A stretch of DNA of 5,164 nt from the NCBI GenBank assembly GCA_014730235.1, contig WJIO01000222.1, positions 1-5,164 of the forward strand. The letters run 5' to 3'. This document shows positions 229 through 5,164 of the stretch, one piece after another; positions within the stretch are counted from its first letter, which is position 1, and every line of letters begins with the position of its first letter. The notes under the pieces are model-generated. The model worked only from the letters and a program-made list of their open reading frames with translations. It searched no databases and was not told where the DNA came from. This DNA is from Candidatus Poribacteria bacterium (GTDB lineage Bacteria > Poribacteria > DTPJ01 > WJIO01). The position numbers and the translations under genes were made by a program.

Positions 229-912
229 TTAGTAATCGGGCCACTTAAAATGATCTTTTGATAAATTCCCTGTGCTCTTCAGAACCTGCTCTAGGTGTCT
301 TACATAGTTTGTTATTAGATTAGGTACTTCCAACGGATTTATTTCGTCAACTTCCGGATATTCCGGATGTTTTTCCACAAAAATCCCATATATCTTTTTG
401 TTGATCTTATGAACGCCCAATTCAGTATGTGCCTGATGAATCCCCATCCATACAGTTTCAATAAATTTCTGCTGTCCCATACTCCATAGGGTTCTTTGAA
501 ACGCAGATACATATTCAGAAATGTTGAAGCTCGGGTCGTGTCTGAGATGGTCTGCAAAATTCATATCTTTCAATTCTCTCAAACCCAGACCCGCTGCCAC
601 TGCATTGATATACACATTTGAGTATAGACTTTTGGCAGCATATTCATATGGAGCGCCCGGTCCTCCGTTGAGAAATACTCTAATAAGATAGTTGTTTATC
701 TTATCAATGCTATCTCCTTGCTCTATGGGGTTCATATCAGGATAATCCTTGATGATCCTTTGTATATCATCCCATCCTCCAATCCTTACAAGAGAACCAT
801 TAAAATTCTCTGCTATGGCTGTCAAGAGATATGAACTTGGTGCGCATTCGGCTTTCTCTTCATCACGATAAAAGTCTCCAAATGGAGGCCTTCTAAAATT
901 TGGAAGACCCAT
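229..912 (-). CDS. hypothetical protein, 227 residues, family not recognised
   Basis: This is a complete reading frame with an ATG start at 910-912 and a TAA stop. A strong site (AAGGAG, 922-927) sits 9 bases upstream, which supports the start. I do not recognise the family. The protein looks soluble and mixed-helical, with no signal peptide or membrane segment and a single cysteine (C23). It has a proline- and arginine-rich start (RRPPFG at 7-12), a glycine/proline turn (GGPGAP, 83-88) and many aromatic residues. The C-terminal third (about 165-212) looks helical and is interrupted by a proline-rich stretch (HPEYPEVDEINPLEVP, 182-197). It starts 17 bases after the Replic_Relax gene ends and is followed closely by the zinc-ribbon gene, so it is very probably co-transcribed. 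A part in DNA mobility is a guess from context only. The 72-residue ORF at 339-557 on the same strand is out of frame and is a shadow. Confidence 0.85.
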   Translation of the reverse strand: MGLPNFRRPPFGDFYRDEEKAECAPSSYLLTAIAENFNGSLVRIGGWDDIQRIIKDYPDMNPIEQGDSIDKINNYLIRVFLNGGPGAPYEYAAKSLYSNVYINAVAAGLGLRELKDMNFADHLRHDPSFNISEYVSAFQRTLWSMGQQKFIETVWMGIHQAHTELGVHKINKKIYGIFVEKHPEYPEVDEINPLEVPNLITNYVRHLEQVLKSTGNLSKDHFKWPDY

Positions 913-929
913 TATTATGTTCTCCTTCC

Positions 930-1829
930 TTAAATATTGAACCTGTCTATTTCAATCATCCCGTCATTCAGGATTGAAAACGGTTCAGGCTCATTTACTG
1001 ATTTGTTCCAGACCTTGCCAGACCAGAAATCAAAAGGTGTATCAAGATCCCCCTTGTTTAGTATCCATACGAAATTCTGTTGTTTTTCCGCAAGGGATAT
1101 AACAGCTTCCCTTAACCTTTCTGCCCTGATACTCGAATTCAGGACATATAGATTCTGGACCGCCACCACTTTTCCATCTGGATTATATTTCTCCCATACG
1201 AGTCCATTGATATACTCCCTGTAGTTAAGGAACTTGAATCCAAGGCTGGAAGGGTCATGTATGTGCTTGCCGTCCGATTCAGTAATGTTCTTGCCATCAA
1301 AGGAATAGCCTTTTTTGGGATACAATATGGGCTCTGTGCCGTTGTCCACTTCTACAAACCATATTACCTGCTCGTCCTCCTCTGTAAGGAATCTCACCCG
1401 TATATCGGGAATAATGACCGTCCCGTCCGGAAGCTCCTCAGCAGTGTTAGAAACAAATTTCCCATCCAAATATGAGAAGCTATACTCCGGAACTATCTCG
1501 ATTATCTTCCAAGGGAAGTCCGGTATATGCTTAAACATCTCAATGCACACGAGAACCTCGTTGACCGACAGCAGGTGTCCGCCTTTAGCTTTTGGAATCC
1601 TCCGACCACGAATCGTGTAGGCATATTCCCTTGAATTGCCCCATCCCGGATAATCAGAGCATCTTACGCAGTATACTGTACCTCTATTCACCTCCCTGAG
1701 CATCAACGCTTGTATGGCCTGCTTCTGCCCCTTTGCCATAGCCTCCGGATAATGTTTCCATCCCAGATGCGACATAGCGAGTAAGATCATTTTTGTTACT
1801 GTTGCCAGAACATCATCTCTCTTTCCCAT
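930..1829 (-). CDS. replication-relaxation (Replic_Relax, MobC-like) family protein
   Basis: Proteins of this family accompany conjugation-type ATPases on mobile elements of Gram-positive bacteria and are thought to help open or mark DNA at replication or transfer origins. Numbering from the ATG at 1827-1829 (299 residues), residues 1 to about 90 look like a winged helix-turn-helix: helices, then a hairpin-like segment (REYAYTIRGR, 67-76), then the family-like H85-LLSVN-E motif. The second half carries the family hallmark: P141-D142 at one strand, then FVEVDNGTEP at 158-167. This D...E-x-D arrangement (D142, E160, D162) also resembles a PD-(D/E)xK nuclease core; that similarity is inference, and activity is not shown. 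A later segment (VVAVQNLYVLNSSIRAERLREAV, about 221-243) fits the family's strand-then-helix region with R-AERLR. The ATPase gene lies just upstream. A GTG at 1845-1847 would add six residues, but it lies inside the ribosome-binding site, so the ATG is preferred. Confidence 0.8.
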   Translation of the reverse strand: MGKRDDVLATVTKMILLAMSHLGWKHYPEAMAKGQKQAIQALMLREVNRGTVYCVRCSDYPGWGNSREYAYTIRGRRIPKAKGGHLLSVNEVLVCIEMFKHIPDFPWKIIEIVPEYSFSYLDGKFVSNTAEELPDGTVIIPDIRVRFLTEEDEQVIWFVEVDNGTEPILYPKKGYSFDGKNITESDGKHIHDPSSLGFKFLNYREYINGLVWEKYNPDGKVVAVQNLYVLNSSIRAERLREAVISLAEKQQNFVWILNKGDLDTPFDFWSGKVWNKSVNEPEPFSILNDGMIEIDRFNI

Positions 1830-1843
1830 TGTTTTATATAGTT

Positions 1844-1853
1844 TCACCTCCTT
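1844..1853 (-). promoter_or_regulatory. ribosome-binding site that decides the start of the Replic_Relax gene
   Basis: The minus strand reads AAGGAGGTGA here, a near-perfect match to the 16S anti-Shine-Dalgarno sequence, three bases after the ATPase stop codon (TAA, 1857-1859). The upstream candidate start GTG (1845-1847) is formed by the last bases of this site and so cannot use it. The next in-frame start is the ATG at 1827-1829. Spacing from the end of the site is 14 bases, longer than usual, which is the one weakness of this choice. Confidence 0.75.
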
Positions 1854-1856
1854 CGA

Positions 1857-4259
1857 TTATGCTGTTATGTCCTTTTTTCGTCGTCTTGATTTTGGAAATA
1901 TTGAATCAAAATATTCTTTGCTGTTTAAATCCGGTATAGTTCCCCCGAATTCTTCTTCTGACCTGTTTTGAATTTCCCTGACAACTTTTTCATCAACCGC
2001 TTCAACAGGCTTTAGTCCCTCCAAGAAATACACCTTTTCATGAAGTCTTAAATAGTATCTATATGGAGGAAGGTTAGTAAGGTTCCTTACCTCTGTCTGG
2101 ACTTCCTTATGCCAGTAATCCGATTCTTCGGCTGAACACTTGAAGACTATTGAATTCAATGCCTCAACTGCATTCCTCAACTTTTCCCCATATTGAGTCC
2201 GTGACTGGTATGTAAAATAGAATCTCGCCCCTTTATTTCTGCCCTGAGAAATAGCGATTTCAGCAATTTCATCTACAAGATACAAATGCGCTTCATCAAG
2301 AAACAGATGAACAAGCTTATTAGGATCGTTAGATCGTTCCGGGCTTAACAATTCCGTCATCACTTTCAATATGAATACAATTGCTGTGGAAATAGTCTTT
2401 TCAACCCCCAAAGCCCATTTGTTAAGATCCAATATGATTATTCTTTTGTTGTTAATAGCTTCAGTAATATCAAGCTTTGGATTTAACTGGCACGTCAGGG
2501 GACTAATAAACGGCGTCAGTATTGTAGAGACGGACAATCCAGGCGCTCGTCCCTTACTTACCAATTCTGCATAAGGTCCGTTGAAATACTTTATAGACCT
2601 TTCTACTGTAGTATATTTTAATGTCTTGCTTAGGAAATCTTTATTTGTTAGCTCTTTAACATGCGCTAATGTCGGGTTATTAAATGTTGGACACAATAAT
2701 CCTGGTACACCATTTTCAAAGTAATCATCCATGTTATGTCCATAACCTCGTGCTTCTGACTTGTTTTTTGTTGCATCCGCATGAGCCATTGCCTTTAGAT
2801 TGCTTATACTGTATTCTTGTTTGGCTGGATCAGTATCCAGAATCTTTATGCCTATTGGTTTTTGAGATATGTAGTTAATATATACTATATTCTCGTGACG
2901 TATCCTTGGAATATTTGAAATAAGTTGTCCGCCTGAATGGTGTAACGACAATATAATTGCTGCTTGAGTCGGATCCATAAGTAATTGGTTCATCGTATTA
3001 AATTCTGCTGTGGATTTACCTCCCCCTGGCACACCGACAAATCCCACCCCAGGAGTAAGAACTTTCCTTTCCACCGTCAATGGCTTCCCGGTATTCGGAT
3101 CCTTTCCAAGAACAATATGGCCCCCTGTTCCAATGGGTTTTTCAGGTATCTTATCACCCCTCAAGGACTTTATCTCAGTATCATCACTGTCCAGCATGTT
3201 TGTACCGAATGGCATCATAAGCTTGGCAACGTTCATCGCAGAAGTCATCTGTGAAGTCACCATGGAAGCCCTCATCTTATCCGCCTCTATGACCTTTGAA
3301 ACAGGTATTCCCTTCTTCCTGTATGCAGACAGCCCTATCTTACGAAGGGGATAATCCTTATACATGGATAGAATCTGCTGCATTATCTTGTCTTCCTTGC
3401 CCTTCAACAACACCCCTATTATCTTCAGGGAATACATCACAAGACAGCTTGACTCGGAGATGCTTTTCTGGGCCATCTCTTTCTGCTGGATGGTATGTGG
3501 ACTGATAAGACCGTTGGTTTCATATTTTATCCTGTCAATCTCCATAGCCAGCTCCTGTGTCTCTGCCAGCTCTATGTATTTCCCATACTGGGGTAGCGTA
3601 TGGAAATAGATGAGAACCAAACCTATGTATTCAAGCCCTTGAAGCTGGGGACATATCTTCACTAGGATTTCCGCCGGATGATTGGTTTCGGTCACAATCT
3701 GGTTAGGAAATGTCTTTAAAAGGTTCCTGTCAAAGACCAGATCAACATGGATGTAGCTGAACCTTTCCCTTTCGGATTCGTTCTCCTGGAGATATCTGAT
3801 CGTCTTTGAGAAAACATCATCTTCCAAGGTCTTCGGCCCAATTGTCTCACCTCTGAATTGGGCCTCATACAGCGACCTGTAATTCTGGAAATCCAGCTTA
3901 TTCCTGGCAAATGCCAACTGGGTTATCTTCGGTTCCTTGCTGTCTTTGTTGGTCAACTGCCATTCCTCAGCAATTGAAGCTCTCATCGCGCTTGCAGATC
4001 TTATATGGTCTGCCTTTGCATACAGGAGGAGGTTTGGTTTCACTTCCAGGCTTCTTGCTAGCCTGTATGACGGTATAAGCTCCACCATTATTATGTCTTC
4101 CGGGGAGTACCTGCCTTCCTTCTTTATCTTGCCATCCATAGTAGGTATTCCCCAGACAAAGGGAGTGATATCATCCTGAATCTCAGGGTTATTATTTACA
4201 TACTGGACCTTAAACGCCGTATGCAACTTTTTCTCTTGCTCCCTGTCATAATGATACAT
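1857..4259 (-). CDS. TraG/VirD4/HerA-class conjugation-type P-loop ATPase
   Basis: This is a complete 800-residue protein. Its C-terminal motor domain has a Walker A motif (GVPGGGKS, 409-416, K415) and a Walker B motif (LVHLFLDEAH, 649-658, D655 and E656). After these come a glutamine-bearing motif (TYQSRTQ, 683-689) and a stretch like the TraG/TraD C-terminal region (NAVEALNSIVFKCSAEESD, 696-714; NLTNLPPYRYYLRL, 726-739). LDITEAINNKRIIILDLNK (595-613) also fits this group. Such ATPases form hexamers that recruit or pump DNA, typically as coupling proteins of type IV secretion. The roughly 400-residue N-terminal region has no convincing membrane helix, unlike classical VirD4. It resembles the soluble N-terminal region of Gram-positive relatives, with the QKEMAQKSISESSCLVMYSLKIIG area (259-282) as one example. 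The C-terminus is basic (KSRRRKK, 790-796). Oddly, the DPHGD motif usual after Walker A reads SLHHSGG (438-444). The start lies 7 bases after the coiled-coil gene with only a weak ribosome-binding site, which suggests translational coupling. VirB4-like function is the main alternative. Confidence 0.88.
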   Translation of the reverse strand: MYHYDREQEKKLHTAFKVQYVNNNPEIQDDITPFVWGIPTMDGKIKKEGRYSPEDIIMVELIPSYRLARSLEVKPNLLLYAKADHIRSASAMRASIAEEWQLTNKDSKEPKITQLAFARNKLDFQNYRSLYEAQFRGETIGPKTLEDDVFSKTIRYLQENESERERFSYIHVDLVFDRNLLKTFPNQIVTETNHPAEILVKICPQLQGLEYIGLVLIYFHTLPQYGKYIELAETQELAMEIDRIKYETNGLISPHTIQQKEMAQKSISESSCLVMYSLKIIGVLLKGKEDKIMQQILSMYKDYPLRKIGLSAYRKKGIPVSKVIEADKMRASMVTSQMTSAMNVAKLMMPFGTNMLDSDDTEIKSLRGDKIPEKPIGTGGHIVLGKDPNTGKPLTVERKVLTPGVGFVGVPGGGKSTAEFNTMNQLLMDPTQAAIILSLHHSGGQLISNIPRIRHENIVYINYISQKPIGIKILDTDPAKQEYSISNLKAMAHADATKNKSEARGYGHNMDDYFENGVPGLLCPTFNNPTLAHVKELTNKDFLSKTLKYTTVERSIKYFNGPYAELVSKGRAPGLSVSTILTPFISPLTCQLNPKLDITEAINNKRIIILDLNKWALGVEKTISTAIVFILKVMTELLSPERSNDPNKLVHLFLDEAHLYLVDEIAEIAISQGRNKGARFYFTYQSRTQYGEKLRNAVEALNSIVFKCSAEESDYWHKEVQTEVRNLTNLPPYRYYLRLHEKVYFLEGLKPVEAVDEKVVREIQNRSEEEFGGTIPDLNSKEYFDSIFPKSRRRKKDITA

Positions 4260-4266
4260 CCTATGC

Positions 4267-4536
4267 CTATTCCCAACCGTCAGTGGTCGTTATATCCTCT
4301 TTTTCCTCGTTTGTATCTTCTTTGACATCTTTGAATTCAGCCAAAAGAGCGTGAAACTCCTTTGCCATCTGCTTGAATATGGTAAACTGTGCGCTGTTGA
4401 TATTGGCCGCAGTCTTGATAAGATTACGGGAAGCCGTCTCGAGCTCAAAGCTGGCCTGGTTAATATTTGAGATTGACTGCTGCAGCTTTCTTGTGCTCTC
4501 CCGCAATTCATCCAACTGGTCAGGCTCTTTCGCCAT
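4267..4536 (-). CDS. small putative coiled-coil protein, 89 residues
   Basis: The ATG at 4534-4536 is preceded by GGAGG (4547-4551) at 10 bases, which supports this frame. From residue 6 to about 69 the protein has no proline and shows a regular alternation of hydrophobic and polar residues (L8, L11, L18, I22, I25, F30, L32, L39, I40, I46, F51, F54, F61, L64, L65). This predicts a long helix, probably a coiled coil. The last 20 residues are acidic and likely disordered (D70 to E89). There is no membrane segment and no cysteine. The stop is 7 bases from the start of the ATPase gene, so the two are probably translated together, and a role as partner or regulator of the ATPase is a reasonable inference. 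I do not recognise a family. The overlapping 89-codon frame at 4290-4559 lacks its own ribosome-binding site and has shadow-like arginine/serine-rich content. Confidence 0.82.
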   Translation of the reverse strand: MAKEPDQLDELRESTRKLQQSISNINQASFELETASRNLIKTAANINSAQFTIFKQMAKEFHALLAEFKDVKEDTNEEKEDITTTDGWE

Positions 4537-4555
4537 ATCTTTATTTCCTCCATGT

Positions 4556-4586
4556 GCATCCCCGGCCGATAAACGACCGGAGATGC
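4556..4586 (-). promoter_or_regulatory. RNA hairpin in the leader of the coiled-coil gene
   Basis: On the minus strand, GCATCTCCGGTCG pairs with CGGCCGGGGATGC around a five-base loop (TTTAT), giving an unbroken 13-pair stem. Two of the pairs are U-G wobbles in minus-strand RNA; the same positions are C-A mismatches if the plus strand is read. The structure is therefore better formed in the transcript of these genes. It ends 4 bases before the ribosome-binding site (GGAGG, 4547-4551) of the coiled-coil gene. No U-tract follows, so it is not a typical terminator. It could stabilise a processed mRNA end, tune translation, or bind a protein; the sequence does not say which. Confidence 0.7.
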
Positions 4587-4612
4587 TGGTTAAGAGTTAA
4601 TTGGTTTAATGC

Positions 4613-4837
4613 TTAAGAACCACAATCCTTATGTGCCACATAGCCTATACCCTTACAGGTCTCACAGGGTAACCTGTTGGCTATTGCCAAATCCACCCCG
4701 CATCGCAGACAATGTCTTCTGGGGTTAACCGTGCCACAGTGTACTGCGCCATACTTATGGCTCTTTCCTGTGCCCCCGCAATCAGGACAAAGCATGGATT
4801 TTCCACAGTATTTACATTTAATGTCGGGTCTTCTCAT
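4613..4837 (-). CDS. small cysteine-rich zinc-finger protein (DnaJ-like CxxCxGxG motifs)
   Basis: The protein has 74 residues, ten of them cysteines. Pairs occur at C8-x2-C11, C17-x2-C20, C43-x2-C46 and C58-x2-C61, with single C34 and C72. Two pairs lie in CxxCxGxG repeats (CPDCGGTG, 17-24, and CETCKGIG, 58-65), as in the zinc domain of DnaJ. There is no J-domain and no room for one, so it is not a DnaJ chaperone. Two zinc sites are the likely structure, with protein or nucleic-acid binding as the generic role. The ATG at 4835-4837 has an ideal ribosome-binding site (AGGAGGTGA, 4844-4852) at 6 bases, which overlaps the stop codon of the gene before it. A 76-base spacer with a hairpin separates it from the coiled-coil gene. 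Confidence 0.85.
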   Translation of the reverse strand: MRRPDIKCKYCGKSMLCPDCGGTGKSHKYGAVHCGTVNPRRHCLRCGVDLAIANRLPCETCKGIGYVAHKDCGS

Positions 4838-4843
4838 TATTTA

Positions 4844-4852
4844 TCACCTCCT
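4844..4852 (-). promoter_or_regulatory. ribosome-binding site overlapping the preceding stop codon
   Basis: The minus strand reads AGGAGGTGA, a full match to the anti-Shine-Dalgarno sequence. Its first two bases are the last two of the TAG stop (4851-4853) of the acidic protein gene. It serves the zinc-finger gene at 6 bases. The overlap shows the two genes lie in one transcript and makes coupled translation likely. Confidence 0.8.
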
Positions 4853-5164
4853 ATTCGTCAAGAAGCAGATGGCCGTAGTTGTCCACGATCTTCTGGATAA
4901 CCTCAATGTCGAACCTGCTTGGCAGTTCCATCCCGAATTTGTCGCAAATCTTTCTGGCCATCTCTATGTTATCCTGCAATTCCTGTAAGAACGGCAGGGA
5001 CTCCATCTCCACATGCCTCAGGTATTCACCAAACAGATCTCCAATAGGATCTTCCTCGACATCAGGAATATTGGGTATCTCTATCTCCCTGACAGGCTCG
5101 ATAGGATATTCCCTTGGCGAAGGTTCACCATCATACAATGATGGACGCTTATAAAGATCATTAA
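4851..5164 (-). CDS. acidic protein of unknown function, 5' end beyond window (partial)
   Basis: The frame is open from the right window edge to a TAG at 4851-4853, giving 103 visible residues. A TTG at 5136-5138 could be taken as a start, but no ribosome-binding site precedes it. The codons before it read sensibly (NDLYKRPSLYDGEPSPREYP), so the gene most likely begins outside the window. The visible part has a proline- and glutamate-rich, probably disordered segment (to about visible residue 43, EEDPIGD), then a helical C-terminal part (GEYLRHVEMESLPFLQELQ onward). It has one cysteine, no zinc motif and no membrane segment. I do not recognise the family. It is the first visible gene of the run and is tightly joined to the zinc-finger gene. 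Confidence 0.75.
   Translation of the reverse strand, partial: NDLYKRPSLYDGEPSPREYPIEPVREIEIPNIPDVEEDPIGDLFGEYLRHVEMESLPFLQELQDNIEMARKICDKFGMELPSRFDIEVIQKIVDNYGHLLLDE

Follow-up and report, generated by a model that had tools for sequence, protein, structure and literature searches.

The window analysed here is the whole of contig C150, a stretch of 5164 bases from a bin of 5.5 Mb in 451 contigs. All seven genes in its list of open reading frames are on the minus strand. In the order of that strand they encode a 103-aa open frame, a 74-aa zinc protein, an 89-aa coiled-coil protein, an ATPase, a Replic_Relax protein, a 227-aa protein and a zinc ribbon protein, the last of which is cut by the contig end (Table 1). 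The largest gap on the contig (76 bases, 4537-4612) lies directly upstream of the coiled-coil gene, and from that gene onward the gaps are 7, 27, 17 and 31 bases. A preliminary description of the locus had the coiled-coil, ATPase and Replic_Relax genes as one tightly packed unit on a single strand, separated by 7 and about 27 bases. These distances are confirmed, and the packed run goes on beyond the three genes, since the 227-aa gene follows the Replic_Relax gene so closely that the two probably share a transcript. Searches of all the libraries and collections used returned no relative of the 227-aa protein. For the Replic_Relax gene the listed GTG start at 1847 sits within the Shine-Dalgarno sequence AAGGAGGTG, and the ATG at 1829 is therefore preferred.

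Table 1. Features of the window, with the evidence for each.
Feature	Position	Strand	Evidence
Coiled-coil protein (89 aa), opening the packed run	4267..4536	-	ORF, codon bias, heptad test, dN/dS 0.107 against C34, no membrane segment
ATPase (800 aa) resembling type IV coupling proteins, no membrane anchor	1857..4259	-	ORF, profile, predicted core
Walker A GVPGGGKST, residues 409-417 of the ATPase	3009..3035	-	Alignments
Walker B HLFLDEAHLYL, residues 651-661 of the ATPase	2277..2309	-	Alignment, D655 E656 invariant
Replic_Relax protein (299 aa), candidate relaxase of MOBC type with a restriction-endonuclease-like fold	930..1829	-	PF13814, profile, predicted fold
PD...ExD nuclease motif (P141 D142 ... 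E160 D162) of the Replic_Relax protein	1344..1409	-	Invariant in nine sequences
13-bp hairpin 5' of the coiled-coil Shine-Dalgarno sequence	4556..4586	-	Fold z -6.2, kept in C34
227-aa protein, family unrecognised, 17 bases after the Replic_Relax gene	229..912	-	ORF; no relatives found

The tetranucleotide profile of the contig correlates with that of the bin at r 0.83; the lowest value among 28 bin pieces of the same size that were sampled is 0.87. Its arginine codons are rich in AGG, and of the sampled genomes the bin's own still comes closest to it in codon usage. This composition fits a mobile element of the bin host or of a nearby host, and misbinning is also possible. Comparison of the contig ends found no circular overlap, and neither a tRNA nor an Rfam family was found on the contig. 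Within the whole 5.2 kb the module has beside it neither an origin of transfer nor a gene for replication or for a channel.

The coiled-coil gene can be compared with a variant on C34, another contig of the bin, which matches window positions 4379-5164 with 87% identity over 787 bp. Over the first 52 codons dN is 0.036 and dS is 0.334, giving a dN/dS of about 0.11, and the zinc gene and the 103-aa gene have likewise values of about 0.11. The codon bias of the coiled-coil frame resembles that of the long genes, whereas that of a competing 89-aa frame does not (log-likelihood ratios of +22 and -6), and the contrast between heptad positions a and d is significant against shuffled sequences (p = 0.005). 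The excess of synonymous change shows that the gene is real and under purifying selection as a protein. C34 stops inside the coiled-coil gene at a perfectly identical stretch, which may be a common sequence collapsed by the assembler, and the ATPase region is outside its reach. Two variants of the element thus coexist in the bin, the match occupying positions 1-786 of C34 and being followed by a further 4.9 kb. This extra sequence holds mostly unrecognised genes and an M56/M48-like membrane peptidase, and no transfer gene was recognised in it. A search for further contigs with the ends of the window and C34 returned nothing.

Scans with the single ATPase sequence gave weak matches, to TraG-D_C (E 0.01) and to the PADLOC model mad8 (E 1.1e-7). 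A family profile built without the window sequence finds the ATPase at E 7.2e-18, and a search of the PDB with the family profile ranked TrwB first. In the predicted structure only the core is confident. This core resembles TrwB most (Z 23.6, 262 residues), followed by VirB4 (22.3) and HerA complexes (about 20-21), although the relatives used may bias the model toward coupling proteins. The two structure models, this one and that of the Replic_Relax protein, were built from 7-9 sequences; mean pLDDT is 60 for one of them and 50 for the other. The nucleotide-binding domain makes the protein a candidate coupling protein of the TrwB/VirD4 kind, which supports the earlier assignment to conjugation-type ATPases. 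No hydrophobic segment exceeds the threshold, so the N-terminal transmembrane domain is absent, as had been proposed, and the protein would fit only the coupling protein subfamily that has no such domain. The missing anchor is not surprising, because the Replic_Relax-linked ATPases of three other loci (L064, L067 and L071) also have none and a subfamily of coupling proteins that lack this domain has been described (PMC7434980).

The Replic_Relax protein matches PF13814 at E 2.6e-5, with 24.8 bits against a cutoff of 25.3, and reaches 25.3 bits when the neighbouring in-frame stretches are included. A profile of eight relatives built without the window detects it at E 1.9e-13 as the sole match among 529 frames. 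Chance is excluded for this protein and for the ATPase, as profiles free of the window recover both. The PF13814 match does not extend over the DNA-binding N-terminal portion of the Pfam model; in our structure model the N-terminus is helical with a pair of strands, and the winged-helix part of the Pfam model is unmatched. A search of the phylum for PF13814 gave mostly matches to the winged-helix part alone, which were taken as false. Residue T165 is common to the nine Replic_Relax sequences, as are the motif residues P141, D142, E160 and D162. The model of the protein (pTM 0.67) is most similar to the nickase Nt.BspD6I (Z 9.0, rmsd 4.1, 162 residues), followed by R.BspD6I2, PaqCI and FokI (Z 6.9). 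These Z values are modest, and most of the top structural matches are nucleases of the restriction-endonuclease-like fold. With the relaxase model alone Foldseek gave no significant match, the best being MunI at E 0.002. PF13814 appears in the literature as the MOBC relaxase superfamily (PMC5357655), MOBC relaxases are related to PD-(D/E)XK restriction enzymes, and the pAD1 protein TraX has an N-terminal winged helix (PMC12857230). The family assignment, the conserved motif and the nickase-like predicted fold together make the protein a MOBC-type relaxase candidate, which would act by nicking. The preliminary description saw neither a relaxase nor any other type IV secretion gene. This does not hold for the relaxase, for which a candidate is in view, and it stands for the channel, of which the contig carries no gene.

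Genes for the two families adjoin one another in loci of Acidimicrobiaceae, Planctomycetota, Poribacteria, Brocadia, Spartobacteria, Zixibacteria and Streptomyces, which were drawn from a genome-wide scan, one Streptomyces plasmid and Planctomycetota genomes. The scan used a peptide pattern steered to the relaxase motif with made-up companion sequences. These companions shaped the pattern only; to confirm the matches, the ATPase and relaxase of the window were joined and used. The relaxase gene is directly downstream of the ATPase gene in L063 (Streptomyces), L066, L067 (Brocadia) and L069 (Zixibacteria), downstream with wider spacing in L064 (Acidimicrobiaceae) and L071, and upstream in L065 and L090. 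In L089 a 64-aa gene follows the ATPase and precedes a 234-aa protein that appears Replic_Relax-like by eye. The loci L063, L064, L067 and L069 thus share the two families and mostly the gene order of the window; they differ in having only about 20-25% identity to it, in carrying no coiled-coil gene and, for most of them, in a Walker A motif of the form GxTGxGKS/T where the window has GVPGGGKST. Since the same pair recurs in several other phyla, often with an anchorless ATPase, there is nothing unusual in the pair or in the missing anchor. The pair had been described as a known one of Gram-positive mobile elements; the pairing is borne out and the limit to Gram-positive elements is not, given its presence in Planctomycetota, Brocadia, Zixibacteria and others. 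Close relatives were found neither by tblastn in plasmids and phages nor by single-protein pattern scans of viral and genome contigs, and two alignment-based scans of viral contigs found no relatives.

Two other arrangements were seen among these loci. Coupling-type ATPases of about 1040 aa lie directly after a 160-230-aa gene in L068 (6227-10076), L091 (5937-9694) and L092 (5732-9357). This pair recurs in Spartobacteria and Planctomycetota with no direct link to Replic_Relax, and in L068 the product of the small gene has a clear membrane segment and the ATPase has none. In L069 (6569-8891) the coupling-type ATPase gene, which lies before Replic_Relax, is overlapped at its start by a gene of the ThiF family.

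Known MOBC modules also encode a coupling ATPase together with a restriction-endonuclease-like relaxase, as in the coupling protein MobB and relaxase MobC of CloDF13 and in pAD1 with TraX. MOBC1 mobilizable plasmids encode their own coupling protein (PMC7431656, PMC7434980), and that of CloDF13 also assists relaxation (PMC7431656). A transmembrane domain is present and essential in CloDF13 MobB (PMC7431656), whereas the ATPase of the window has none. In this feature the latter resembles TraJ of pIP501, a coupling-type ATPase that also has no membrane anchor. The CloDF13 record contains, by eye, a comparable PD...FEVE motif in broken frames. In that record (NC_002119, 6840-9247) the mobilization genes are split over several frames, and the typing in PLSDB is non-mobilizable, although the plasmid is a classical mobilizable one. 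We know of no coiled-coil gene in modules of the CloDF13 or pAD1 type.

We consider it probable that the three genes make up the DNA-processing half of a mobilization system with a MOBC-type relaxase and an anchorless coupling protein. The Replic_Relax protein would nick one strand at an origin of transfer, and the ATPase would bind the relaxase with its nicked DNA and pump this strand towards a secretion channel supplied from elsewhere. The coiled coil may aid assembly of the ATPase or relaxase or dock the ATPase on another protein. No mating-pair formation gene such as VirB4 was found on the contig or on C34, and no VirB4-type secretion ATPase (AAA_10) was matched in the bin, which is fragmented. 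By analogy with CloDF13, this would fit a mobilizable element that borrows its channel. The earlier suggestion of a reduced mobility system is supported in the form of a mobilization module with no secretion ATPase in the bin.

The same missing anchor and secretion ATPase would also suit a cytoplasmic DNA translocase and nuclease that serve a plasmid or virus in its replication, segregation or packaging and do not transfer DNA between cells. The family name, with its allusion to replication and relaxation, points the same way, as do weak matches between the ATPase and phage protein families of unassigned function. However, anchorless coupling proteins are a known subfamily (PMC7434980), neither the window nor the C34 variant has a capsid or packaging match, and the phage and viral collections hold no relatives, so that we regard this explanation as unlikely. 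Still less likely is that a HerA-type ATPase and a restriction-endonuclease-like nuclease form an anti-phage defence pair, as HerA-DUF4297 or HerA-Sir2 do. HerA-nuclease pairs such as HerA-NurA and HerA-DUF4297 do combine a related ATPase core with a partner nuclease as in the window, and the mad8 match, weak HerA matches and the structural similarity to HerA complexes agree with this. In the window, however, TrwB ranks above HerA by both profile and fold, and the nuclease is of the Replic_Relax family, whose proteins match no PADLOC model. Every Replic_Relax-linked coupling-type ATPase tested matches mad8 more strongly than the window ATPase does (E 6e-12 to 1e-19). The assignment to defence through mad8 was rejected because the match is common to this family of ATPases.

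The place of the coiled-coil gene is a separate matter. It may belong with the upstream zinc and 103-aa genes and lie beside the pair by accident, a reading which falls somewhat short of an even chance and is compatible with a mobilization function of the other two genes. Its synteny with those genes on C34 favours this, as does its absence from all of about 15 homologous ATPase loci; against it, the gap of 7 bases to the ATPase and the gap of 76 bases with a hairpin on the other side suggest expression with the ATPase. The preliminary description did not recognise the coiled-coil partner, and it has been found only in this element. It also held that the association would fail if ATPase homologues never carried the gene. 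None of them did, and these loci are distant, as no homologue closer than about 25% identity was found. The coiled coil is therefore a conserved gene of this element, so far seen only there, and not a known part of the module. Its most likely role would be as an accessory of the relaxase or ATPase that aids assembly or docks the anchorless ATPase on another protein. Some anchorless coupling proteins work with a small membrane partner (PMC7434980), whereas the small partner here is a soluble coiled coil without a membrane segment. A bolder and distinctly doubtful proposal is that it is a dedicated adaptor which takes the place of this membrane partner. A minimal MOBC module of three genes, from an otherwise unknown element of Poribacteria-related hosts, could in this way dock on foreign secretion channels.

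The module is ordinary in kind, a very divergent version of a known DNA-transfer module with one lineage-specific gene. As a mobilization module it would extend MOBC-type genes to an element of an uncultivated lineage that is very divergent and otherwise uncharacterised. Searches aimed at classical relaxases would overlook modules of this kind. Selection on the small coiled-coil gene points to a possible new accessory of anchorless coupling proteins.

The hairpin just upstream of the coiled-coil gene includes two pairs that are G-U on the transcript. The C34 variant keeps 12 pairs (z -3.7), and the hairpin occurs at only these two places in the bin. It may act in the mRNA or belong to an origin of transfer. 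Elsewhere on C34 (5101-5460) the inverted repeats GAACCCG/CGGGTTC and TTTGACC/GGTCAAA each precede one of two plus-strand genes. They lie a few bases 5' of the Shine-Dalgarno sequence, a placement that resembles that of the window hairpin.
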